A stretch of DNA of 64,000 nt from Calothrix sp. PCC 6303 (GTDB lineage Bacteria > Cyanobacteriota > Cyanobacteriia > Cyanobacteriales > Nostocaceae), in the NCBI RefSeq assembly GCF_000317435.1, contig NC_019751.1:5518001-5582000 (forward strand), written 5' to 3'. The position numbers and the translations under genes were made by a program. Positions 13,102-35,456 of this stretch are shown piece after piece. How positions within the stretch are numbered: position 1 is the stretch's first letter; the number at the start of each line of letters is the position of its first letter. The notes below the pieces were generated by a model, which was not told the DNA's origin, did no database searches, and was given only the letters and a program-made list of their open reading frames with translations.

Positions 13102-13161
13102 CAGCTAACGCTGCGCTACACGTTTCTTGGATGCCCGAAAGGGCTATACAGCAGATCCCTA
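13102..13161. repeat. 60-base dispersed repeat, copy 1
   Basis: This stretch is almost identical to 53208-53266 (one substitution and one single-base gap visible). It contains the internal palindrome GCCCGAAAGGGC. Its last three bases form the TAG stop of the giant kinase on the minus strand. Such units are small dispersed palindromic repeats of cyanobacteria. Confidence 0.9.
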
Positions 13162-16100
13162 ATTACGAATAAATGGCAGTCTAATCACGAACTCAGCACC
13201 TTGATTAACTGAAGAATTAACGTGAATGCTACCTCCATGTTTATCGATAACAATCTGACGGGCAATTGCTAAACCTAAACCTGTACCTTTACCGATGGTT
13301 TTAGTTGTAAATAAGTGATCGAAGATTTTGTTTTTGACATCTTCAGGTATTCCTGCACCATTATCTCGAAGACTAATTAAAACCGATGTTTTATCATTAT
13401 CAAGGCTAGTAGTAATAGTAATTTCGTTAGGATTCGCTTTAATTTGCTCGAAACTAATCCCGGTACTGGATTCATCCAATGCATCAATAGCATTAGCTAA
13501 TAAATTCATGAAGACTTGATTCATTTGTCCTGGGTAGCAGGCAAAAGGATTTATATCTCCGTAATTTTTGATCACTTCAATTTCGGGTCTAAGTTCTGAA
13601 GCTTTCAGACGATGCCTTAATATGAGTAGAGTACTATCAATACACTCATGAATATCACAAACAATCGGTTTATGAGTATCAGACCTCGAAAAAGTTCGTA
13701 AACTGACGCTAATATTATAAATTCTATCGATACTCTGCTTCATCGAAGCAAGCAATTTCGGTAAATCTTCATTAATGTATTCTAAATCAGCTTTGTCAAT
13801 TTTACGGCGCAGTTTTTGACTTGGTTCAGGATGTTCACTTTGATATAAATTGATGATTTCAAACAAATCTTCAATATATTGTTCCGCAGGTTCAATATTG
13901 CCGCTAATACAACCAATTGGGTTATTAATTTCGTGGGCAATACCAGCTACTAAACCACCTAAAGCAGACATTTTTTCGCTTTGCACAAGCTGGATTTGGA
14001 TTTGCTTAACATCTTCTAATGAGATTTCTAACTGTTCCTTAGTTATTTGCAAATTAGCAAGAGAAGATTCTAATTCCTTTGCGTAATCTTGAGAACGTTC
14101 ATACAGTTGAGCATTTTCGATGGAAATTGCCGCTTGTGAACAAATCAGCTGTAATAATTCTATGCGATCGCTTGTGAACACGCCCGCAGTATTTCTGTTT
14201 TCTAGATACAAAAATCCCACTAGTTGGCTTTGACGACGTATCGGTAAACACAACAAACTCTGGGGTTGGTACTGTTGGATATAATTATCACTTAGCCAAT
14301 TCACATGCTTAGTAGTATTATCAATCAGTAAATACTTGCTAGAATTCTTGACATAGTTTAGTACCGAAATAGGTACCTCCATGCTTTCTTCTAATGGTAA
14401 AGAATCAGAGTGAACTGTATTGTTACTTTTTATACTCTGGGATACAGCTTCAACAAACATTTGTCCATTCTTGATTAATACTAATGCTGCCTTACTAGCA
14501 CCAGCATTTTCTAGGGCAACTTCCATCAGTACCATTAGCAGACGTTTGAGATCAATCTCACTAGAAACAGCTTGTGATGCTTTAAGCACAGTTGCTAAAT
14601 CAAACACTGAAGTCATCAAACTGCTACTAGAAGAACCTGTTTGCGTTGCACTTAATACTAAAGTTTCAGTTGTTGTGACTTCATGGGTCTGATTCACAAA
14701 TATCAGCAACTTTGGATAGCTTTGTTCCAAATGTTTGACTTTTGCTTTAGCACCCCAACGTGCATAAGCATAATAAGCATCAGTTAAATAAACTTGAGCA
14801 ATCTTTGATTTTTGCCATCCCAGATAAAACTTAGCTGCTAATTCACCAGCTAAAGCTTCTTCATTTACATATTGATTTTCTCTGGCTAAATTAATTGCAT
14901 TATCATATGCTTCCATTGCCTGTGTATGATTTCCATCAACCCTAAATATCTCTGCCTCAATTAGCAAATACTTGTGTAAGAAATTCTCTGGGCAACTATC
15001 TGCCCATTTCTTCATTTGCAATTGATTTGTCTGCAACTGTTCAAAATACTCAGATTTTAATTTAACATCACTGGTATTTTCATACTTATTAACTAAAGTC
15101 AGAGAGTAATAAAAATTGTGGACTGCGGTGCAGTAAAATCCTAGTACATATTGGATGATCTCTTTAGCTGCAATAGCATATTCGTATGCAGCTTCCCAAT
15201 CACCATATATGTATAACACCTGACATTTCATTACTTTATAGGAACAAAGTCCCAGAAAACTTTTGCGTGATTCACACCTATTTATATACTCTAATTCGCT
15301 ATTGTAACTCGTAGAAAATTCACCATAACTACCTGTCAAACCAGCTAAATTTCTGACTACCAATTCGATAGATTCTATAGCATCAGTTGTGGAAACATTA
15401 TGAGTTTTTTCTGAAAAATCAACGAATCCCGAAAAATCCTGTAACATATCATTTAAATTGGCACCCTGACAAAAGAGGTTTAATGTTTTACCCCAAAGTG
15501 AGTAGCCAGAATTTTGAAATTCTCCAGATTCTAAGCCGTAGCGGTAAGCATCATCATTAATCGGGTTAGAAAAGCGGACGTGTTTATACCAATGATTGAT
15601 GAAACTAGCAAATACGAAATAGGTTCGACATTTCAACGCTGGAGTATTAAAAAAGTTACTTAAATTAATTGCCAGTGTGCCAAATTCATAACCGGCTTGA
15701 TAGTTTTGGAAAATTGAACCTAGTAAAACTCCATAATCAGAGTAACCACGGGCAGATTCAGGAGTATTTCCATACTGTAGTGATAATTTTACTAGTTTCA
15801 GAGCAACAATTGGGAAAAGTTGCGGCATCCCAATATAAGCAACAGAATCTAGATTCATCAGTAATCTGGCAGCAATAATTTTTTCCTGTGATTCCATCAC
15901 GGGTAAATTAATCAAACTGGAAACTTTTCGCTGTGAAGTTAATTGATTAACTTCTGTATATTCTGCTTGCAATTCTTCATAGAAGTTATCTTCTGGTAAG
16001 TTTATATCTAAAAGCTTCAATGCATCTCTGCCAATTTTAATACTTTCAATGAATTTATAATTGAGGGTATATTGAATGATTAAAGTATTTAAAATATCGC

Positions 16101-18621
16101 ATTTTTCCGCATTGGATCTTACTTTCTTTAAAATTTGATAAGTAAGTTCTTCGCTGTTATCAAAGTTGCCATTTAAATATTCAATTTCTATTTTTTCTCT
16201 GTACAATGAATATGTAAACTCATACTGTTCTTCCCAGCAATTTGATCTGAGTAAATTTATGCCCATATCTAAATACTGTTGTGCAGCCATATAGGCAGTT
16301 GCAGCTTTTGCTTTTTTAGCGGCAAATAAATTAAGTTCACAAATAACTTGACGCTCCGCTAAAATTTCAATGAGTTTAATACCTGTATTTAAATGATTAA
16401 CAATATCAAAAATATTTTCTTCTCGTTCTGTTTCCGATGATTTTTCTAATAGCAATCTACCAATTTTTAAATGTGTTTCCTGTTTTTGCGTTTCAGGGAT
16501 TAAAGCATAGGCAGCTTGTTGTACTCGGTCATGCAAAAACTTGTATCTGATTTTGATTTGGGTTTCATCAATTTTGATCGGCTCAGATTGACTAGAAATA
16601 TTTTTAGAATCTGAGTGGAAGAATTTATATGTTTCATTTTTTGGCAGGATCAATTCTTCCTGTAATGCCTTCCACAAGTCTGTAGCTGTATCTGTATAAT
16701 TTTTCTCTAAAACTATTGATAAACTATTTAAATCGAATTCGTTACCGATACAAGCTGCAAACTGCAATACTTTTTGTGTTGATGCAGGTAATTTTTGTAA
16801 AATTTGGGTGATTAATTCAACTACATCATTAGTTAATGCCCGTTCTCGAACTGCAGAAATATTACATTCCCAAGAACGAGAATCTAAGTCAAAAATCAAT
16901 AATCCTTCTTCATACAAAACTTTCATGAATTGCGTACAGAAAAATGGATTTCCCTTAGTTTTTTGATAAATTAATTGTGCCAGTGGCAATGCAACTATTT
17001 CGGAGCAATTGAGGGTATCTGCAACTAAGTTATTAATATGTTCGATCTCTAAGGGTGCGATCGCTACTTCGTTAACGACCGTACCAGACAAACGAATTTG
17101 TTTAAGTGTTAAGAGTAGCGGGTGAGTAGCGGAAACTTCATTGTCACGATAAGCACCAATAATTAATATATGTCCGCTATCGGTTTCTGATGCCAACATT
17201 TGCATCAACTTTAATGATGCAGAATCAGCCCACTGTAAATCATCTAAGAAAATAACTAGGGGGTGTTCTGATGTGGCAAAGATCTTAATAAAGTTTTTAA
17301 ATAGTAAATTAAAGCGGTTTTGGGATGCGGTTCCTTCCAACTCTACGACGGCAGGTTGTTTACCAATAATACCTTCCAATTCAGGTATGACATCAATGAT
17401 AACTTCAGCATTTTCACCTAATACCTCTATGATTGTACTTCGCCAATATTGAAGAAGAGTGTCACTTTCGCTTAATAGCTGACCCATCAAATCACGAAAT
17501 GACTGTACAAATGCCGAAAATGGGATATGACGCTGGAATTGGTCATATTTACCCCTAATAAAGTACCCGCGTTGACGGACAATTGGTTTATGAACTTCAT
17601 TAACAACTGCGGTTTTACCAATTCCCGACAACCCAGCCAATAACATGACTTCGGTGTCACCATGGCTAACACGTTCAAAAGCTGTTAGTAGTTGTTTGAT
17701 TTCATCTTCCCGACCGTAAAGCTTCTCTGGGATAATAAAGCGATCGCATAAATCCCGCTGCCCTAATAAAAAAGCCGGTATATCCCGCTGTTGATGCCAA
17801 TATTTTTGACATCGCTCTAAATCATATTTTAAGCCTAATGCACTTTGATAGCGTTCTTCAGCATTTTTTGCCATCAATTTACTGACAATAGCTGCAAGTT
17901 GCTTAGGAATATCAGGATTAATACTAGTTACATTTTCTGCTTTTTGGGCAATATGGCAGTGCAGCAACTCCATTGGATCTTTAGTGATGAAGGGCAACTG
18001 CTGTGTCAACAGCCGATAAAAAGTCACACCCAAGGAGTAAAAATCTGTGCGGTAATCAATTCCGCGATTCATTCTTCCCGTTTGTTCTGGGGAAATATAC
18101 GCAAGCGTCCCTTCTAAAGTGTTGGGATTTTTTAACTGTTGCGTCTCTCGTGGAAGTACTGAAGCGATACTGAAGTCAATTAATTTAACCTGCTTGGTAT
18201 CGGGGTTAATTAAGATGTTTGCGGGTTTAATATCTTTATGAATAATGCGGCAGCGATGTAAAGCATCTAATGCGACAACTACTTGAATGGCAACATCAAA
18301 AAACTCATGGAGTTCTTTAGGCTTAGATTCATGAAAATACTCATCTAATGAGATTCCGCCAAAGTCTTCCATGACTAAAGCATAAAAGGTATTGTAGGTC
18401 TCCAACGATAAGGGACGCACAACTCCATCAATATCTAAATTTTTGGAAATGATAAATTGATTGCGGAACTGAACTAGCTCGCTAAAACTCGGATATTCAT
18501 TCCGCATCAGTTTTACGATGACGCACTTCCCATCTGATTCACGCATCGCGCGGCAAACCAGGGTTTTTGACCCTGAATAGATTTGCTCATTAATTTCATA
18601 GCCAGGAAGATAAATGTTCAT
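13159..18621 (-). CDS. Hybrid Ser/Thr kinase - AAA ATPase - GAF - histidine kinase
   Basis: A giant multidomain signalling protein of 1820 residues from the ATG at 18621 (an upstream ATG at 18678 adds 19). Order: Ser/Thr kinase (about 8-265; Lys in VIVKLM, HKDIKPAN near 128-135, DFS in place of DFG); AAA/NB-ARC-like ATPase (Walker A GLSGIGKT near 330, Walker B FLDDLQWAD near 459); helical TPR-like region (about 600-1330); GAF domain (about 1355-1530); HisKA with H-box AHEINNP near 1563; HATPase with N-box NLLANAIDAL and G-boxes DNGAGIP and GKGTGLGLA. All key residues for both kinase types seem present. Homologues are frequent in heterocystous cyanobacteria and several affect heterocyst or nitrogen responses. 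Signal and target are unknown. Confidence 0.93.
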   Translation of the reverse strand: MNIYLPGYEINEQIYSGSKTLVCRAMRESDGKCVIVKLMRNEYPSFSELVQFRNQFIISKNLDIDGVVRPLSLETYNTFYALVMEDFGGISLDEYFHESKPKELHEFFDVAIQVVVALDALHRCRIIHKDIKPANILINPDTKQVKLIDFSIASVLPRETQQLKNPNTLEGTLAYISPEQTGRMNRGIDYRTDFYSLGVTFYRLLTQQLPFITKDPMELLHCHIAQKAENVTSINPDIPKQLAAIVSKLMAKNAEERYQSALGLKYDLERCQKYWHQQRDIPAFLLGQRDLCDRFIIPEKLYGREDEIKQLLTAFERVSHGDTEVMLLAGLSGIGKTAVVNEVHKPIVRQRGYFIRGKYDQFQRHIPFSAFVQSFRDLMGQLLSESDTLLQYWRSTIIEVLGENAEVIIDVIPELEGIIGKQPAVVELEGTASQNRFNLLFKNFIKIFATSEHPLVIFLDDLQWADSASLKLMQMLASETDSGHILIIGAYRDNEVSATHPLLLTLKQIRLSGTVVNEVAIAPLEIEHINNLVADTLNCSEIVALPLAQLIYQKTKGNPFFCTQFMKVLYEEGLLIFDLDSRSWECNISAVRERALTNDVVELITQILQKLPASTQKVLQFAACIGNEFDLNSLSIVLEKNYTDTATDLWKALQEELILPKNETYKFFHSDSKNISSQSEPIKIDETQIKIRYKFLHDRVQQAAYALIPETQKQETHLKIGRLLLEKSSETEREENIFDIVNHLNTGIKLIEILAERQVICELNLFAAKKAKAATAYMAAQQYLDMGINLLRSNCWEEQYEFTYSLYREKIEIEYLNGNFDNSEELTYQILKKVRSNAEKCDILNTLIIQYTLNYKFIESIKIGRDALKLLDINLPEDNFYEELQAEYTEVNQLTSQRKVSSLINLPVMESQEKIIAARLLMNLDSVAYIGMPQLFPIVALKLVKLSLQYGNTPESARGYSDYGVLLGSIFQNYQAGYEFGTLAINLSNFFNTPALKCRTYFVFASFINHWYKHVRFSNPINDDAYRYGLESGEFQNSGYSLWGKTLNLFCQGANLNDMLQDFSGFVDFSEKTHNVSTTDAIESIELVVRNLAGLTGSYGEFSTSYNSELEYINRCESRKSFLGLCSYKVMKCQVLYIYGDWEAAYEYAIAAKEIIQYVLGFYCTAVHNFYYSLTLVNKYENTSDVKLKSEYFEQLQTNQLQMKKWADSCPENFLHKYLLIEAEIFRVDGNHTQAMEAYDNAINLARENQYVNEEALAGELAAKFYLGWQKSKIAQVYLTDAYYAYARWGAKAKVKHLEQSYPKLLIFVNQTHEVTTTETLVLSATQTGSSSSSLMTSVFDLATVLKASQAVSSEIDLKRLLMVLMEVALENAGASKAALVLIKNGQMFVEAVSQSIKSNNTVHSDSLPLEESMEVPISVLNYVKNSSKYLLIDNTTKHVNWLSDNYIQQYQPQSLLCLPIRRQSQLVGFLYLENRNTAGVFTSDRIELLQLICSQAAISIENAQLYERSQDYAKELESSLANLQITKEQLEISLEDVKQIQIQLVQSEKMSALGGLVAGIAHEINNPIGCISGNIEPAEQYIEDLFEIINLYQSEHPEPSQKLRRKIDKADLEYINEDLPKLLASMKQSIDRIYNISVSLRTFSRSDTHKPIVCDIHECIDSTLLILRHRLKASELRPEIEVIKNYGDINPFACYPGQMNQVFMNLLANAIDALDESSTGISFEQIKANPNEITITTSLDNDKTSVLISLRDNGAGIPEDVKNKIFDHLFTTKTIGKGTGLGLAIARQIVIDKHGGSIHVNSSVNQGAEFVIRLPFIRN

Positions 18622-19133
18622 AGTGATTATTAACTCACACCACTGAATATATTTAGTCTGTGTAGTAATTGTTCCCATTTGAAGTCAATTTATAACACCT
18701 GGGTATTATTTGTTTGTATTCACAAAGTAATACAAATTATGAACTTACGTAGACTTCATATTATGTACTTAAAAGCAATCTATTAATCATAATAACTTTA
18801 AGTTATCCTTGTAATTTTTATCTGAGTATGAGTATTTTTTTACATTACTGATGAATATTCAACAGATAATCTTATGTTTTCTAGGAGTTTATTCTTAACT
18901 TTATAAATAGGTATTTATTTGCTTGATGGCGTTTAAATTTCCTTTAAGGAAAATTACGTATTTTCTGGCTTATCGTTTTGATTATTTTGATGATTTACTG
19001 TAAATAAAACGAAAGGGTGCAGATAAATTATTTTTCAGCATTATTAATTTGTTTGGTAATGTAATGATCAAATTTTTATTCGCAATTCCTATGATACAAA
19101 TCATTGTTCATAAATATGTGGAATAAAAGCCAT
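18622..19133. other. AT-rich divergent spacer between kinase and oxoamine synthase
   Basis: About 510 bases without a gene, very AT-rich, separating divergent transcription units and therefore containing both promoters. A palindrome centred on AAATTTCCTTTAAGGAAAAT lies near 18935-18954. I could not identify a clean NtcA-type GTA-N8-TAC site by eye. Confidence 0.5.
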
Positions 19134-20420
19134 ATGCAAACTAAAATTTCGACACCTATCCTTAGCTACATGAAGCAGTTGGAAAGCGAAGGAATAACTA
19201 ATATAGAGGAACTATCTGATTACCTGTATGAGCATTACTTGCGACAGGTAGACTTGGGTTTGTATTCCAACGGGCGCTATACATTGACTGGAAGTGATTC
19301 CACAGCCACAGTTGCCTCAACCTTGGTTAATAGCGGAGAAGAATGTATTTTGTGGTGTATCAATCATTACCTAGGATTAAATAGAAATCAGAATGTAATT
19401 GATAAGGTATGTCTCGCTGTACGGGAGTTTGGTACAGGTTCCGGAACATCAGCTATGTCTGGAGGAATGTCCATTATCCACAAGCGAGTTGAAGACAAAC
19501 TGCAACATCTGATTGGTAAAGAAGGTGTTTTACTTTTTCCTACTGGCTTTACAACAAATTTAGGATGTTTGTCAGCTTTGCCAGGAAAACATGATTTAAT
19601 CATTTTTGATCGTGAAAGTCACGCATCGATTATTGATGGTGTTAAGTTGTCTGGTAATAAATGGATGACATTTAAGCATAACAACGTTGGAGATTTGGAA
19701 AGCAAATTAAACAAGTATCAAGATAAATATGAAAATATTTTTGTAGTTATAGAATCAGCTTATTCCATGAGTGGTGACTTAGCACCCCTAAGGGAAATAG
19801 TCGCATTGAAGCAAAAATATAAATTTTTCATTTATGTTGATGAGGCGCATACCTTCGGGATTTACGGTAAAAATGGATCTGGCTATTGCTCACATCTTGG
19901 ACTTGTAGATGACGTTGATTTTATTGCTGCAACTCTATCCAAAGCAACCTCATCTATCGGGGGATTTGTTGCGATGAAATCGAAGTATATTCCCTTATTG
20001 CATTGGCGCGCTAGTACATACACTTTCCAAGCATGTTTGACACCTGGTGATGCCACAGCAATTTTAGCGTCGTTGGAGGAAATTGAACAAAATCCACAAT
20101 TAATAGAATTACTTCACGAGAAAAATCAGTATATGCGCCGTTGTCTGACATCTTTGGGGTTTGATTTAGGTACAAGCCAAAGTCCGATTATTCCTGTGTT
20201 TATACCAGATGTAGAAAAACTAATGGCATTTAACAAAGAGTTATATGCTCGTGGTATTTTCTCTGTGTCAATTGTTTACCCAGGTGTCAAACCCCATGAA
20301 GGCAGAATTAGATTTATCTTGAGTGTGGCACATACGAAGGAACAGATCGATACAACTGTAAATGCATTGTATGAGTTGGGCTTAAAGTATGGAGTTATTG
20401 CTCATGCTATGACCGCGTGA
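19134..20420 (+). CDS. PLP-dependent alpha-oxoamine synthase (AONS family)
   Basis: A 428-residue fold-type I PLP enzyme related to 8-amino-7-oxononanoate synthase, KBL, serine palmitoyltransferase and CqsA. It shows NHYLGL, REFGTGSGTSAMSGG, the PLP-ring stacking DRESHASIIDG, the cofactor Asp in VDEAHTFG, and the Schiff-base Lys in LSKATSSIGG. It would condense an amino acid with an acyl thioester, releasing CO2. The ATG at 19134 has GGA upstream; alternative starts lie at 19116 and TTG 19104. No biotin or 2-amino-3-ketobutyrate genes are near, so BioF or Kbl is not supported. It is divergent from the hybrid kinase. Confidence 0.88.
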   Translation: MQTKISTPILSYMKQLESEGITNIEELSDYLYEHYLRQVDLGLYSNGRYTLTGSDSTATVASTLVNSGEECILWCINHYLGLNRNQNVIDKVCLAVREFGTGSGTSAMSGGMSIIHKRVEDKLQHLIGKEGVLLFPTGFTTNLGCLSALPGKHDLIIFDRESHASIIDGVKLSGNKWMTFKHNNVGDLESKLNKYQDKYENIFVVIESAYSMSGDLAPLREIVALKQKYKFFIYVDEAHTFGIYGKNGSGYCSHLGLVDDVDFIAATLSKATSSIGGFVAMKSKYIPLLHWRASTYTFQACLTPGDATAILASLEEIEQNPQLIELLHEKNQYMRRCLTSLGFDLGTSQSPIIPVFIPDVEKLMAFNKELYARGIFSVSIVYPGVKPHEGRIRFILSVAHTKEQIDTTVNALYELGLKYGVIAHAMTA

Positions 20421-20470: not shown

Positions 20471-21154
20471 CTATTTTCGCTTTTTCCCTTGGGGAGAATT
20501 ACTAGGGTTCAGTTGTTGCCTACCATTACGAATTATGTTTAGAATTTGACTTAAATCTGTTTCAATGTTGTCTAAAACACCATCAGCATATTCATCTGCA
20601 CCTTGCTCAATTTGCTGTGCTTGGGCAATGGCTTGGCTTCGCATTTCTTCTAATTCTTCTTGGCAGTGACGGCGTTTGAGATCAATTTCGGTGAGAGTTT
20701 CTTTCATCATCGCTTCACATTCTAATTGAGTTTGGCGACGTATCTGTTGTGCTTCTTTATCTGCTTGAAGAATAATGTCATTTTCATCTAGGATTTGGAC
20801 ACGTTTAGCCTGTGCTGCATCAACTATTTGCTGTCCGTATTCTTCAGCTTCGAGAAGGATTTCCTGCTTTTGCTCGATAATAGCGATCGCGTGATTAAAC
20901 GCATCGGGTAAAGATACACGGATTAAATCTAGTTGTTCTAGCAATTTCTCCTCATCAATTAAAGTTTTGCCAGTTAGTGGAATCCGAAAGCTAGAAAGTA
21001 TCATCTCCTCCAGACGATTTAGTTCCTGCTCAACATCTATGGCTCTAATTCCGGTTGTATCTGTTCTGGAAACTCCATTGTCCCCTGGGGATGGGGAGTT
21101 GTTTCCATTTCCTTTGTGTTCTGATTCGATATCGGATAATTGTGTGCGTAGCAT
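20471..21154 (-). CDS. Coiled-coil protein, DivIVA / ATP-synthase-b-like
   Basis: A 227-residue acidic, Gln/Glu-rich protein with long helices: residues 85-200 are nearly continuous coiled coil ([32 protein letters not shown]). There is no membrane span. This resembles DivIVA/Cdv3-type or F1Fo b-subunit-like helical proteins, but the family is not certain. The first 39 residues (a low-complexity Gly/Ser/Asn stretch) overlap the 3' end of coaD in another frame; the conserved part may begin at about residue 37, so a later start is possible. It lies downstream of coaD and is probably co-transcribed. Confidence 0.7.
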
Positions 21155-21615
21155 TGGTATATATCTAGGGCAACGTGGGGAGGTACAAGATGATTAATCG
21201 CACCACCAAATCTTGCAATCTCTTTTACCACACTACTACTTAAAAAACTATACTCGTTAGACGTGGCAAGAAAAACTGTTTCGATTTCAGTGGAAAGCGT
21301 TTTGTTGGTGTGTGCCATCGACAATTCTATTTCAAAGTCGGAAATTGCCCGCAACCCCCGCAAGAGAACCTGTGCTTGGCGGATATGAGCATAATTCACC
21401 GTTAGTCCATCAAAGCTATCTACCTCCACATTAGATAAATGCTTTGTTGAGTAGCGAATTTGCTCAAGTCGTTGTTCAACTGTAAACAAAGGTGTTTTGT
21501 TAGGATTTCGCAAAACAGCGACAATTATCCTTTCAAATAGCTTGGCACCACGTTGAATTAGGTCAAGGTGTCCTAGCGTTACCGGGTCAAAGCTTCCTGG
21601 ATATATGGCAATCAC
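21037..21615 (-). CDS. coaD: Phosphopantetheine adenylyltransferase
   Basis: A 192-residue CoaD, which transfers AMP to 4'-phosphopantetheine in coenzyme A synthesis. The nucleotidyltransferase motif is [16 protein letters not shown] (residues 5-20) with the T/HxGH signature, and the [10 protein letters not shown] and S-S-x-x-V-K-E motifs ([11 protein letters not shown]) are intact. Bacterial CoaD is normally about 160 residues; here a tail of about 30 Pro/Glu/Thr-rich residues ([14 protein letters not shown]...) follows and its DNA also encodes the start of the next gene. The tail is probably not part of the fold. Confidence 0.95.
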
Positions 21616-22786: not shown

Positions 22787-23908
22787 TTAGGCTTTTCCCA
22801 GTGTAACCACTGCATTTTGTCCACCAAAACCAAAACTAAAACACATCATTTGATTAATTCTGGTTTCAAGATTCTCTCTGACAAAATTTAAACTGAATTC
22901 TGGCTCCTTCAAGCCTACACAAGATGGTAATATTTGTTGCTTTAATGCCATCAATGAAAAAGCTACACTTAAAGCCCCAGATGCTCCAATTGTATGTCCT
23001 GTAGCGCCTTTTGTTGAGATTATAGGAACAGATTCAGGAAATAACTTCTGTATTAATAAACTCTCAAACTGATCATTTAACACAGTACCAGTTCCGTGGG
23101 CATGAATGGCATCAATATCAGAAAAGCTGATTTGACTGCGTTGTAAACATTGCTTAATGGCAGATTCGGCGCTTTTTCCACTCGGTTCCGGTGAATTGGG
23201 GTGATGTGCATCCGCAGTTAAACCAAAACCGAGAATTTCACCGTAAATATTGGCACCTCTGCGGATTGCTGCTGTTTTCGATTCTAGAACAAATACTGCT
23301 CCACCCTCACCCAATACTAAACCTTCACGGTGTTGATCAAAAGGGTATGCACCCGTTTTGGCTAAAGCACCCATTTGTTGAAATCCGGTAATAGTTAGAG
23401 GTGTAATTGGTGCTTCCACCGCACCAGCGATCGCATATTCGCATTGTCCACTATTAATTAAGGAAAATGCCTGAAAAAGTGACCAAATTCCCGTTGCACA
23501 TGCAGCCATTGGAGCCAATACTATCCCAGTTGATCCTATTTGTCGCGCAGATGCGATCGCATTCATATGGGGAAGGTGATTCATCCATTCTTCCTGACTT
23601 TGAATCCCCTGCGCCATTTGTTCCCAAACACCTTGGAAACCTCGACTAGAACCAATTACCACCCCACAATCTTCTAGAGGTTCACTTAATCCCGCATCTT
23701 GGAGAGCAGATGCGACAACCTGCCAAGTGATTTTTTTTACATCTGCTGGTTCATATCCAATCATTCCCAAAGGACGAGGCGCTAATTGGGGGAAAGGCTG
23801 ATGTAACTTGATTCCAGACTTCCCTGCAATCAATTGTTTCCAACTATCTTGAAGATTATTACCGAGGCAGGAAACAAAACCAATACCAGTCACAACAACC
23901 TGAATCAT
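22787..23908 (-). CDS. Beta-ketoacyl-ACP synthase (FabF-like)
   Basis: A 373-residue thiolase-fold condensing enzyme; the ATG at 23908 (MIQVVVTGIGFV) is preferred to 23917. The Cys-His-His triad is visible: Cys in MAACATGIWS (about residue 140), His in IHAHGTGTVLND, and His in GATGHTIGASG. It extends acyl-ACP with malonyl-ACP. At 373 residues it is shorter than FabF (about 410) and is divergent in places, for example around the SRGFQGVW segment, so it may be a specialised or secondary synthase. No acyl carrier protein or other fab gene is adjacent. Confidence 0.87.
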   Translation of the reverse strand: MIQVVVTGIGFVSCLGNNLQDSWKQLIAGKSGIKLHQPFPQLAPRPLGMIGYEPADVKKITWQVVASALQDAGLSEPLEDCGVVIGSSRGFQGVWEQMAQGIQSQEEWMNHLPHMNAIASARQIGSTGIVLAPMAACATGIWSLFQAFSLINSGQCEYAIAGAVEAPITPLTITGFQQMGALAKTGAYPFDQHREGLVLGEGGAVFVLESKTAAIRRGANIYGEILGFGLTADAHHPNSPEPSGKSAESAIKQCLQRSQISFSDIDAIHAHGTGTVLNDQFESLLIQKLFPESVPIISTKGATGHTIGASGALSVAFSLMALKQQILPSCVGLKEPEFSLNFVRENLETRINQMMCFSFGFGGQNAVVTLGKA

Positions 23909-24014
23909 ACAAACCAAAGTTAAAAGTTATGAATTAGGAGTAAGCTTAGCCAAGTCGCAGCTTCGGCTTCCTCAGCTTAAAAAAACTCCTCCCTCATAAC
24001 TCCTAACCTTTTAT

Positions 24015-32137: not shown

Positions 32138-34864
32138 TTAAACCCAATTTCCCAGAAGTACGTATGCTCCCCAATAATAGGGTGATTTATACTTGGGATC
32201 ATTCAGAACACTTAGTTGGGCACGACGTAAAGCTTCAGCTTTAGATACTCTACTTTTACGAGACTCACTAAGTTCCTCATAAAATTTACTCATTAAGGTA
32301 GCAGAAGCTTCATCATTGACTCTCCAGAGGGTGGCTATGGTACTACGAGCACCCGAACGAACCGCCACGCCTGCCAGTCCTAGGGCTGAACGAGCATCTC
32401 CTGAGGCTGTTTGACAGGCGCTTAGAACCAAGAGTTCAAGGGATTTACTACGGGATAATTCTACTGTTTGCAGAACACTACTGAGATCCTTGACGTTGAT
32501 TTTTTCATCCCAAGTTAAGATGAAAGTCTTCTCTGCCTGGGAACTAAATTGAGCATGGGTAGCTAAATGCACAACTGGAAAAGGTGCAGATGCCACTTGA
32601 GCTTGGAACGCGGCTTTGGTAAATTTATCGTTGAGTAGGATTTTGCTAGGAATTTCTGATTCAATTTGCTTAACTTCCTTGATAACACTGGGGAGTGATG
32701 AGAAGTTGAGACGCGAAGCACTCAATCCTCCAACTAAAGCTCCCAGTTTTTCTTGTTTAGGCGATCGCGGTGCTAATAATTGTAGTCCAGGTGTGAGGGC
32801 GATACTATACTTTTCGATCAGGTATTTTTCGCCATCATGGAGGGCAGAAATAGGAATACTTCTGAGGGAACCATCCAAAACTAACACCAGTGTTTCAACT
32901 TTGCTGGCTGCTAATTCTGGGGCTGCGGGACGTATAATCAGATCGTACATCTTTTGAAGATCTGGCAGAATTAAATCCAGGGCATTGGCTTGATTTAATC
33001 CTCCGCGAACATCGGCTGCAAGTTTATTTACAGCATCGGCTTTGATGTCTGTTTTGTAATAACGAAACTCGCGTTTTTCGCCACTTTTACTGCTTGTGGG
33101 TAATTTTGGTAAACTGACGATTACTGCTAGTTGATCCTCTAGAATAATTGGGTAAATTACGCCTGCTTTTTCATCAACTTGATCAACTTGTTTAGGATCA
33201 GCATTTAGGCAAGCTTCACGGAAAAAGTTATCTAGTTCAACTAGTTGCAAACCTTCAATGATGTCTCGCGCTGTTTTCAAGTTGTCTTTTTGTTTGGATT
33301 CTACCAATAACCTCACAAGTTGACGGTGAATTGGTTCTACGGCATCGCGGAAAGAGAACTGAACATCAGGACTAGCTGTAGCTAAATCTGCGCGTAGAGA
33401 CTTGATGGTATTGACGGCTTCCCTGTATGCTGCGATCGCATTTTCATTTTTTCCCTGTTCTTTGGTGACTCTCCCTAACTGCCATTGCCATAAATAGGTG
33501 ATATCTTCGGCGTTAATTTGCTGGGATAGTTGCATTGCTTGTTGGGTGAGCTTTTCTGATTCTGCCCATTGCCCTGTTTCTTCATAAATACTACCCATAG
33601 TTCCCAATACATAGGACTCTGTACGGGGATTTCCTAATTCTTTTGCCTGTTTGGCTCCTAGTGCCAAGATTTTAGCAACATTGGGTAATGATGTGAGGGT
33701 TTTATCCTTTCTATAGATCCGCATTGTGCTTTGTGCCAGATTTACCCTAGCATCAATGCTAACAATGCTTGAAGGTAAGGCATCCACTTCTGTTTGCAGT
33801 TGGGGAAGTAGCTCTTTGGCTGATTCTAGCTGATTACTATCTATGAGTAAACCCAGTTGGTTTAGTCGGGCTTGAATCCGAATATTTGCGGGTGTGGTGG
33901 GAAACTCTGCTAAATTTTGATACAGGGTTGCTGTTGGTTTAAAGTTAATGGGGGCAAGAGTACCATCATCTAGAATTTCGTCAAAATTAATTTGAGCGCG
34001 GGAAAGGTTTCCTAAACTCAGATTATTTAAAGCTATGGTTTTTGGTATTTCCAGCTTTTGCGCGATCGCTAAACTATGTTCTAAGATGATTTTGGCTGCT
34101 TTAAACTCTCCAATTACCCGCAGGGAATCTCCCAAGATATATAACCCTGTAGCGTTTTCCGCTGATACTGGAATTACCCTTAAAGCAAGTTTAAGTTTTC
34201 CAGGTTCGGCAACCACATCTGTATTTACATCCAACGGCAGATTGAAGGTTTTTGCTAAAAAATCAGCCGCTCTTCGGTAAAGTCCCAGGCTTTGTAAAGC
34301 TTGTGCCTGCTTAATTTTACTGGTTAAAACCAACTGAGGTTGTTTCTGCTGAGTATAAATAGCTGTCACCCTTTCCCAGGTTTTTAGGGCAATCTCTGGC
34401 TTACCTCGTGATAATTGTAACCTTCCCTGAATGTCTAAAGTTTGTACTAGTGCTGATGTATATTCAGGTTTTTGACTTTTATTAGTGTCTAATAGTTTAA
34501 TACTCTCAGTAATTGTACTTTCAGCATCATTCCAATTTCCTAACTGTTGCTGACACAGGGATAAATTGCTTAGACTTAAAGCCTGACGAACAGGGTCTTT
34601 TTTTTGCTGATACTGTTGTGCAGCTTGTTGGAAAAGAGTAGCTGCCTCATTATACTGTCCCTGGTTGTAAAGCGATCGCGCTTGTTGTTCGAGGGATGAA
34701 CTAGATTGATTTTCAACAATCGGGGTTGCAGTTTGAGGAATATCAGAAATTTTAGCAAATCCCGGTGAAGTAATACACAGCAAAGCAGTTACCAACATCG
34801 GCAGAGCATACTTAGTAAACCGACGATAGGATATTCTCAAATGTGAAGTTGAAAATTTTTTCAT
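32138..34864 (-). CDS. Secreted TPR-CHAT protein (caspase-like peptidase)
   Basis: A 908-residue protein from the ATG at 34864 (MKKFSTSHLRIS) with a probable signal peptide ending near residue 38 (SPGFA). Residues 50-500 hold tetratricopeptide repeats (YNQGQYNEAATLFQQAAQQYQQ, ALSNLSLCQQQLGNWNDAE and more). The C-terminal CHAT domain (about 600-908) has the catalytic pair: His in VVHLATHAQFSS (about residue 768) and Cys in LVLSACQTASGD (about 815). CHAT proteins are caspase-related peptidases found in bacterial effector and stress systems; the TPR part binds partners. No obvious partner is next door. Confidence 0.92.
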   Translation of the reverse strand: MKKFSTSHLRISYRRFTKYALPMLVTALLCITSPGFAKISDIPQTATPIVENQSSSSLEQQARSLYNQGQYNEAATLFQQAAQQYQQKKDPVRQALSLSNLSLCQQQLGNWNDAESTITESIKLLDTNKSQKPEYTSALVQTLDIQGRLQLSRGKPEIALKTWERVTAIYTQQKQPQLVLTSKIKQAQALQSLGLYRRAADFLAKTFNLPLDVNTDVVAEPGKLKLALRVIPVSAENATGLYILGDSLRVIGEFKAAKIILEHSLAIAQKLEIPKTIALNNLSLGNLSRAQINFDEILDDGTLAPINFKPTATLYQNLAEFPTTPANIRIQARLNQLGLLIDSNQLESAKELLPQLQTEVDALPSSIVSIDARVNLAQSTMRIYRKDKTLTSLPNVAKILALGAKQAKELGNPRTESYVLGTMGSIYEETGQWAESEKLTQQAMQLSQQINAEDITYLWQWQLGRVTKEQGKNENAIAAYREAVNTIKSLRADLATASPDVQFSFRDAVEPIHRQLVRLLVESKQKDNLKTARDIIEGLQLVELDNFFREACLNADPKQVDQVDEKAGVIYPIILEDQLAVIVSLPKLPTSSKSGEKREFRYYKTDIKADAVNKLAADVRGGLNQANALDLILPDLQKMYDLIIRPAAPELAASKVETLVLVLDGSLRSIPISALHDGEKYLIEKYSIALTPGLQLLAPRSPKQEKLGALVGGLSASRLNFSSLPSVIKEVKQIESEIPSKILLNDKFTKAAFQAQVASAPFPVVHLATHAQFSSQAEKTFILTWDEKINVKDLSSVLQTVELSRSKSLELLVLSACQTASGDARSALGLAGVAVRSGARSTIATLWRVNDEASATLMSKFYEELSESRKSRVSKAEALRRAQLSVLNDPKYKSPYYWGAYVLLGNWV

Positions 34865-35456
34865 ATTTATATTTTCTGATGGAGTCCAGTTTTCGGCTGA
34901 ATCAGAATATAGGGTCAATTTAGCCTTAAACTTTCTATTTCTAGCTAGCAGACCCAAATTTTCGGTAAATTTTGCCTACTCTAAGTATACATATCACCAT
35001 TTACGGATAAAGCAACGAGTTTGTTGCTTTTTTTCAACAAGCACTCACATACGGAGGAAGGCAGATCCTTTTCATCCATCAGAATTTTGATCTGTATAAA
35101 AAGACTTCCAATTAAATAATTATCAACAGTAGGGGGTACCCCGATGCCTATGCGTCGCCAGTTTTGATTTGGGACGGCACGTTTTGAGAGTCGGATGATC
35201 ACATCATTTATATAACTAAAGATTACGCACAAATATTAAATACTTCAGTATTTTCTCTAGATCATCACCTACATATTAATAAAATAGACAGTAAAGACAT
35301 ATTGCGTAATTAATTACCGTAGAGCAGAAATCCTATTATCACTAATTTTAGTTCTAGTTCCACATATCAAGCTGTATTATTTTACTTTCCAATTTGGATT
35401 CAGGTAAAATAAATAAATTTATACAATTTTATACTTATTTAATACTGATTAAACCT
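34865..35456. other. Non-coding spacer upstream of TPR-CHAT and lipoprotein genes
   Basis: About 590 bases between divergently read genes (TPR-CHAT to the left, lipoprotein to the right), so it must hold both promoters. A low-complexity frame of 83 residues at 34981-35232 has unusual composition and no family resemblance and is not called. I see no terminator-like structure. Confidence 0.4.

Follow-up and report, generated by a model that had tools for sequence, protein, structure and literature searches.

The 64,000 nucleotides of Calothrix sp. PCC 6303 analysed here (contig NC_019751.1, positions 5,518,001 to 5,582,000; the whole stretch is called the window below) come from a genome of 6.96 Mb in 4 contigs and carry the gene of an alpha-oxoamine synthase (AOS) head-to-head with that of a giant dual Ser/Thr-His kinase. 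The initial annotation had described a canonical AOS and, divergent from it, a kinase of 1,820 residues. Both descriptions were borne out: the motifs it quoted are present (LSKAT with its Lys, VDEAH), the catalytic residues are intact, and both reading frames are open at the expected coordinates (Table 1), with a gap of about 512 bp between the likely starts.

Table 1. Positions of the gene pair and of the conserved features around it in the window
Feature	Position	Strand	Remarks
AOS	19134..20420	+	likely start ATG 19134, at which relatives align; 428 aa
AOS, version of the open reading frame (ORF) table	19104-20420	+	TTG start; 438 aa
Dual Ser/Thr-His kinase	13159..18621	-	likely start ATG 18621, suggested by relatives; 1,820 aa
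Dual kinase, version of the ORF table	13159-18678	-	ATG start; 1839 aa
Conserved block upstream of AOS	18884..19011	+	about 120 bp; carries TTTACTGTAA at 18994
227-aa gene, conserved flank	20471..21154	-	matches no family; locus marker outside the proposed circuit
coaD (pantetheine-phosphate adenylyltransferase), conserved flank	21037..21615	-	200.3 bits, cut-off 103.3; locus marker

Recurrent linkage of the synthase and kinase genes

Is the pair an accident of one genome? A profile of the AOS clade defined below found members in 10 of 217 family genomes and 6 of 56 genera, the window's own genome counted, and in eight of these ten the synthase directly adjoins a giant dual kinase, in three gene orders. 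Six loci (group A: the window, G365, G392, G370, G314 and G349) occupy one chromosomal site, where the 227-aa gene adjoins AOS and coaD is present in all six. Five of them are head-to-head, and in G349 the kinase gene is inverted and precedes AOS on the same strand. In G370, two tandem synthase copies (L046 9592-10881 and 11388-12677, 100% identical to rounding) accompany one kinase. In group B (G323 and G525) AOS is followed by the kinase on the same strand, with gaps of 89 and 389 bp, and within 20 kb the two loci share only AOS and kinase, further kinase paralogues aside. In a non-cyanobacterial metagenome-assembled genome (MAG; G409, contig L004), AOS, a 966-aa hybrid histidine kinase with HisKA, HATPase, two receiver stretches and an Hpt domain, and a receiver-HD gene run in this order on one strand. 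Three to four hydrophobic segments lie near the N-terminus of this kinase, and the locus looks like the layout of the Cqs/Lqs systems discussed below.

The initial annotation had tied synthase and kinase together from position only. The recurrence of the pair in group A, group B and the MAG turns this into a repeated linkage (eight of ten genomes, separate kinase clades), while sensing of the AOS product by the kinase stays a proposal. Dual kinases are numerous, with 7 to 30 matches per genome at E<=1e-150 (ten genomes, 46 candidates scored in each). Assuming 0.9 genes per kb, these matches give a chance of 0.2-0.7% per genome that a given gene has a giant-kinase neighbour, rising to 0.9-1.6% if all 46 scored candidates are counted. 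With such values, two linkages with separate kinase clades are unlikely to have arisen by chance.

The synthase belongs to a distinct clade

Counted from the TTG start (19104), the catalytic residues of the window AOS are His173, Asp246 and His249 (VDEAH), Lys280 (LSKAT) and Arg403, and all five are kept in each of the 38 aligned AOS rows. The PLP-binding Lys (pyridoxal 5'-phosphate), the stacking His, the Asp/His pair and the Arg that mark the superfamily are thus all present in an AOS fold; the Asp/His pair and the Arg, which would bind a carboxylate, we take to be catalytic in this fold. In serine palmitoyltransferase (SPT) the equivalents of the stacking His and the PLP Lys are His159 and Lys265 (PMC8895605; this and the other papers are cited from excerpts).

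The Pfam match of the protein is Aminotran_1_2. Eleven NCBIfam models also match, the best being SPT-CFB (330.3 bits), and none reaches its cut-off. BioF (TIGR00858, 322.8 against 426.45), glycine C-acetyltransferase or Kbl (TIGR01822, 254.4 against 493; NF005394, 299.9 against 460), SPT (NF047600, NF047599 and NF047603, 330.3/640, 307.9/500 and 230.1/670) and 5-aminolevulinate synthase or HemA (TIGR01821, 241.6 against 338.55) were rejected as identities by score and by tree, in which the window AOS lies outside the BioF, Kbl and HemA rows and apart from L100 and L106, the two rows with scores over an SPT cut-off. A place inside BioF or Kbl, which the initial annotation had named as contrary evidence, is therefore contradicted by both cut-offs and tree. 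The CqsA/LqsA autoinducer synthases were rejected on the cut-off alone (NF005526, 177.8 against 428), the tree holding no such sequences since the 14 control genomes contained none over the cut-off.

In the tree of 38 AOS rows the window AOS and its relatives form a clade of 12 rows (support 93/90; 92% of 200 bootstrap trees), of which nine are cyanobacterial, one comes from the MAG, one from a Rhizobium plasmid and one from a Photobacterium plasmid. The AOS part of a fusion protein in G441 is the sister of the clade at 100/100, and neither clade nor sister falls among the rows of BioF, Kbl, SPT and HemA. All 12 clade rows and G441 have Ala at an alignment position where 23 of the 25 other rows have Arg, the two exceptions being Gln in Phocaeicola and Gly in E. 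coli BioF; in the window protein the clade-typical residues are Ala117 and Pro146. The truncated synthase of G314, the second copy of G370 and two long-branch rows that pass NF005697 (L104 and L105) were left out of the tree. On these grounds the window AOS represents a separate clade within a known superfamily.

Two side observations concern these relatives. The G441 protein (L070 8842-12354, minus strand) is a 1,170-aa fusion of the AOS part with an adenylation-type domain and a carrier-like stretch, both identified by reading the sequence, and by its apparent domains looks like a natural-product enzyme. On the Rhizobium etli plasmid L104 (2065-4110), a response-regulator gene stands directly before an AOS-like gene of the NF005697 family, another AOS family with a signalling gene close by.

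An AlphaFold model of the synthase (mean pLDDT 72, pTM 0.76) has among its best matches, tied at Z 35.5, a thermostable AOS (7pob) and the Sphingobacterium SPT (3a2b; 333 residues aligned, root mean square deviation (rmsd) 2.4); Vibrio CqsA (2wk8) matches with Z 31.8, rmsd 3.1 and 330 aligned residues. The 50 structure matches listed are AOS structures with Z 28-35. The best PDB profile match is again the Sphingobacterium SPT (345.9 bits).

A second AOS elsewhere in the host genome (L002) is 30% identical to the window AOS and passes the BioF cut-off (461.7 against 426.45), so biotin synthesis has no need of the window enzyme. Nostoc punctiforme is described as having a single AOS, of the BioF type (Belton et al., PMC8895605), and the window AOS is therefore an extra enzyme. 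Outside the family the clade profile found only the own genome among 386 sampled genomes of the phylum, and among 58 genomes of the MAG's phylum it matched G409, the MAG itself, strongly and G441 weakly. With the window protein as query (E<=1e-60), 58 of 291 genomes sampled from the order matched; among the matches listed none exceeded 36% identity, the own genome aside. Viral contigs yielded no relative, and phage records only AOS matches of 35.4% identity or less. The clade gene is rare and patchily distributed.

The kinases share one architecture and have separate origins

The window kinase carries Pkinase (27-278), AAA_16 (319-507), GAF (1376-1521) and HATPase_c (1718-1836) domains, in the layout Ser/Thr kinase (STK), AAA/STAND, helical repeat region, GAF, HisKA/HATPase. 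TPR_CHK1 at about 1186-1285 (22.7 bits) stays under its cut-off of 27, and HisKA (21.6 bits) under the Pfam cut-off of 26.9, while HATPase_c passes. STK, Walker A, H-box (GIAHEINNP), N-box and G-box motifs are present, from which both kinase activities are predicted; in all eight AOS-adjacent kinases DFS replaces DFG. With an N-terminal STK, a GAF domain and a C-terminal His kinase, the protein has the architecture of the cbSTKIII dual kinases such as HstK and Pkn40/41 (PMC2176072), HisKA itself being under cut-off. It differs from them in that, among 118 sampled genomes, its clade turned up solely in those that also carry the AOS.

A Kyte-Doolittle scan at a threshold of 1.6 found no segment above it in the window kinase. 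Of the seven other kinases next to an AOS, six show one or two segments barely above it (1.61-1.95), which fall inside folded domains or the repeat region and which we do not take for membrane helices.

Group-A kinases are 62-94% identical to each other and the two of group B 67%, whereas identity between the groups is only 42-46%; their AOS partners, sister clades, are 68-74% identical between groups. A tree of the eight kinases that adjoin an AOS, together with 20 chosen paralogues, requires at least two origins for the eight, a single origin appearing in 0 of 200 bootstrap trees. They are, as judged from their sequences, paralogues of one architecture from separate clades. Within group A the kinase tree joins the window and G349 (100/99), the AOS tree leaves the order of the window, G392, G370 and G349 unresolved, and the two trees are not plainly congruent.

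Co-occurrence was scored over 118 family genomes, on the 3 or 4 best candidates from each. Kinases at least 62% identical to that of the window occur in AOS genomes only (5 of 118: the window, G349, G365, G370 and G314), and the next best match, at 55%, comes from G298, where an AOS is missing both next to the kinase and from the rest of the genome. With the group-B kinase, the 67% match of G323 is the sole one over 60% in this sample, to which G525 does not belong, and the next (57%) lies in a genome without AOS.

As an observation on the kinase class itself, at least nine dual-kinase matches stand in a row on one strand in G359 (C1:365862-418683, about 53 kb), a striking tandem expansion.

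A conserved block precedes the synthase

Across five group-A loci, G349 with its inverted kinase included, the block upstream of AOS aligns without gaps at 61-79% identity; the best identity over 120 bp is 0.62-0.79, against at most 0.52 in 60 mononucleotide shuffles per pair, and TTTACTGTAA is present in three of the five blocks. Since the block stays with the synthase when the kinase is inverted, it is probably the promoter or operator region of AOS, a function read from its conservation; it is possible that it serves as the operator of some regulator. In G370 it precedes only the synthase copy that adjoins the kinase. No copy stands before the AOS of group B, of G398 or G359, or before the second G370 copy, where identities are below the shuffled maxima or within about 0.02 of them. 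An RNA element was considered for the block and rejected: the consensus fold is weak (-1.3 kcal/mol, the stretches being roughly in register), and Rfam at gathering thresholds gave no RNA element in the whole window.

Other genes near the pair

In agreement with the initial annotation, no biotin or threonine-catabolism genes were found among the window ORFs scanned, which were part of the total. A beta-ketoacyl-ACP synthase (acyl carrier protein) of the PRK05952 type (22787-23917, minus strand; 597.4 bits against a cut-off of 455) lies 2.4 kb past AOS. It has no homologue among the ORFs of the Calothrix locus L003 and is therefore probably unrelated to the pair. Farther along, a 939-aa TPR-CHAT protein (32138-34957, minus strand) has the architecture of a caspase-like protease. 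Elsewhere, a DUF4440 protein directly 3' of AOS in G398 (L049 10463-10864) and one past coaD in G370 (L046 7783-8172) are 51% identical over 127 aa, possibly as a shared accessory enzyme, possibly by coincidence.

Discussion

Based on the recurrent linkage, we tentatively favour, at a little under even confidence, an explanation in which the AOS makes a small amino ketone that is sensed by the adjoining dual kinase. The chemistry is proposed because of superfamily membership: the enzyme would condense an amino acid, or S-adenosylmethionine (SAM), with an acyl thioester, release CO2 and yield an alpha-amino ketone, which short-chain dehydrogenase (SDR), methyltransferase or exporter genes, where present, could finish or move. 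The divergent kinase would read the small molecule in the cytosol, with the GAF domain and the repeat region ahead of it as the likeliest candidates for the sensing part, and would pass its state on by Ser/Thr and His phosphorylation. As no segment exceeded the hydropathy threshold, this receiver would be cytosolic. We infer in this way what the AOS uses and makes, that the kinase binds a ligand, and that the pair serves communication between cells or filaments. More doubtful, though possible, is the wider proposal that the amino ketone moves between cells or filaments before the dual kinase reads it inside the cell, and that the AOS has recruited different histidine kinases several times.

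The initial annotation had likened the pair to cqsA/cqsS and lqsA/lqsS, and the comparison holds in part. As in the alpha-hydroxyketone quorum-sensing systems CqsA/CqsS, LqsA/LqsR/LqsS and JqsA/JqsS/JqsR, a PLP-dependent synthase of the same fold (2wk8) is encoded beside a histidine kinase, with a patchy distribution. It differs from them in that the synthase is far under the family cut-off and scores higher with SPT and BioF models, and in that its kinase is a soluble STK-AAA-GAF-His kinase protein, theirs a membrane sensor. The cqsA, jqsA and lqsA-like genes are reported always to adjoin their kinase (PMC3566124), and Vibrio CqsA uses SAM, its product being later reduced by a dehydrogenase (PMC3376566). 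In genomes of the Candidate Phyla Radiation (CPR), 51 CqsA homologues lie beside CqsS-like kinases (PMC7567580); this, too, is an AOS-type gene beside a putative sensory kinase known from genomes only, but the CPR kinases match a CqsS profile. By analogy with these adjacencies, synthase plus receiver is the best reading of the window pair, which may work like Cqs/Lqs without being a member. Cyanobacterial BioF (Npun_R3567 type; L002 in the host) shares the superfamily and all five catalytic residues but passes the BioF cut-off that the window AOS fails. The pairing is a new form of the AOS plus histidine kinase principle, with a distinct AOS clade and a kinase that is an ordinary cbSTKIII by architecture.

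Several observations weigh against a synthase and its receiver. The window kinase lacks the N-terminal membrane receptor of CqsS and LqsS, and dual kinases are common in the family. Within group A the GAF domain is 58-63% identical to that of the window, against 76-80% for the STK and 70-79% for the His kinase part, which speaks mildly against a shared or fixed ligand bound there. In G314 the synthase is N-terminally truncated (275 aa, about 150 residues lost, not at a contig end) and the kinase is nonetheless intact. In G398 and G359, two genomes of one genus, the AOS (60-63% identical to the intact group-A and group-B copies) has no kinase beside it. The AOS of the Rhizobium plasmid has a methyltransferase as neighbour and no kinase, and no kinase is annotated within 15 kb of that of the Photobacterium plasmid. 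The association with other genes that the initial annotation had named as contrary evidence is thus found in this genus and on both plasmids, which are proteobacterial. Linkage to a kinase is seen in three of six lineages (groups A and B and G409), the six loci of group A being counted as a single event since they lie at one site. The MAG contig has only 5,097 bases, its shortness and the binning being weak points.

The main alternative, nearly as likely as a synthase with its receiver and possible in its own right if on the doubtful side, is that the kinase controls the AOS pathway without sensing what the AOS makes; the locus would then be a small biosynthetic one, for an amino-ketone natural product or a defence metabolite, with a dedicated regulator answering nitrogen, iron or redox state. 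Gene neighbourhoods speak for it. In G398 the AOS, an EamA exporter, a DUF4440/SnoaL protein and an SDR lie on one strand, and G359 has genes that agree with these in size and order; a methyltransferase, 75% identical between the two, stands near the pair in G365 and G349; and the sister AOS of G441 is fused to an adenylation domain. The dual kinases HstK and Pkn40/41, moreover, are reported to respond to nitrogen source or iron (PMC2176072). However, these accessory genes vary, the commonest companion is the kinase, and no transcription factor was recognised beside the window pair. The upstream block, kept with AOS under kinase inversion, fits both regulation and product sensing.

The profile and structure matches to the Sphingobacterium enzyme, with SPT-CFB as best NCBIfam model, invite the further idea that the AOS is a lipid enzyme of the SPT kind, whose product would be a long-chain base or a cysteate-type envelope lipid, and that the kinase beside it senses envelope or nitrogen state. 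We consider this improbable: all three SPT cut-offs are missed, the tree places the clade outside the SPT rows, Ala117 stands where both of these rows have Arg, the neighbours scanned include no recognisable gene for ACP or for other parts of sphingolipid synthesis, and N. punctiforme, with BioF as its one AOS, is described as lacking sphingolipids (PMC8895605). That the genes adjoin by chance or by hitchhiking, dual kinases being abundant in these genomes, is disfavoured already and very unlikely. The kinase counts given above, the three lineages without a kinase neighbour and the single site of group A are what it has to offer, but two separate kinase clades lie beside sister AOS clades, the linkage survives inversion and synthase duplication, and the kinase clades co-occur with AOS in the genomes sampled.

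In the open-access literature we found no paper describing an AOS-dual kinase pair, and the excerpts covered name no ligand for cyanobacterial dual kinases. The pair makes the question of dual-kinase input directly testable by a single gene deletion. If a synthase and its receiver are indeed what the pair represents, the synthase plus histidine kinase principle of Cqs and Lqs would reach into multicellular phototrophs and include a cytosolic kinase, and the large class of dual kinases would gain a defined ligand.

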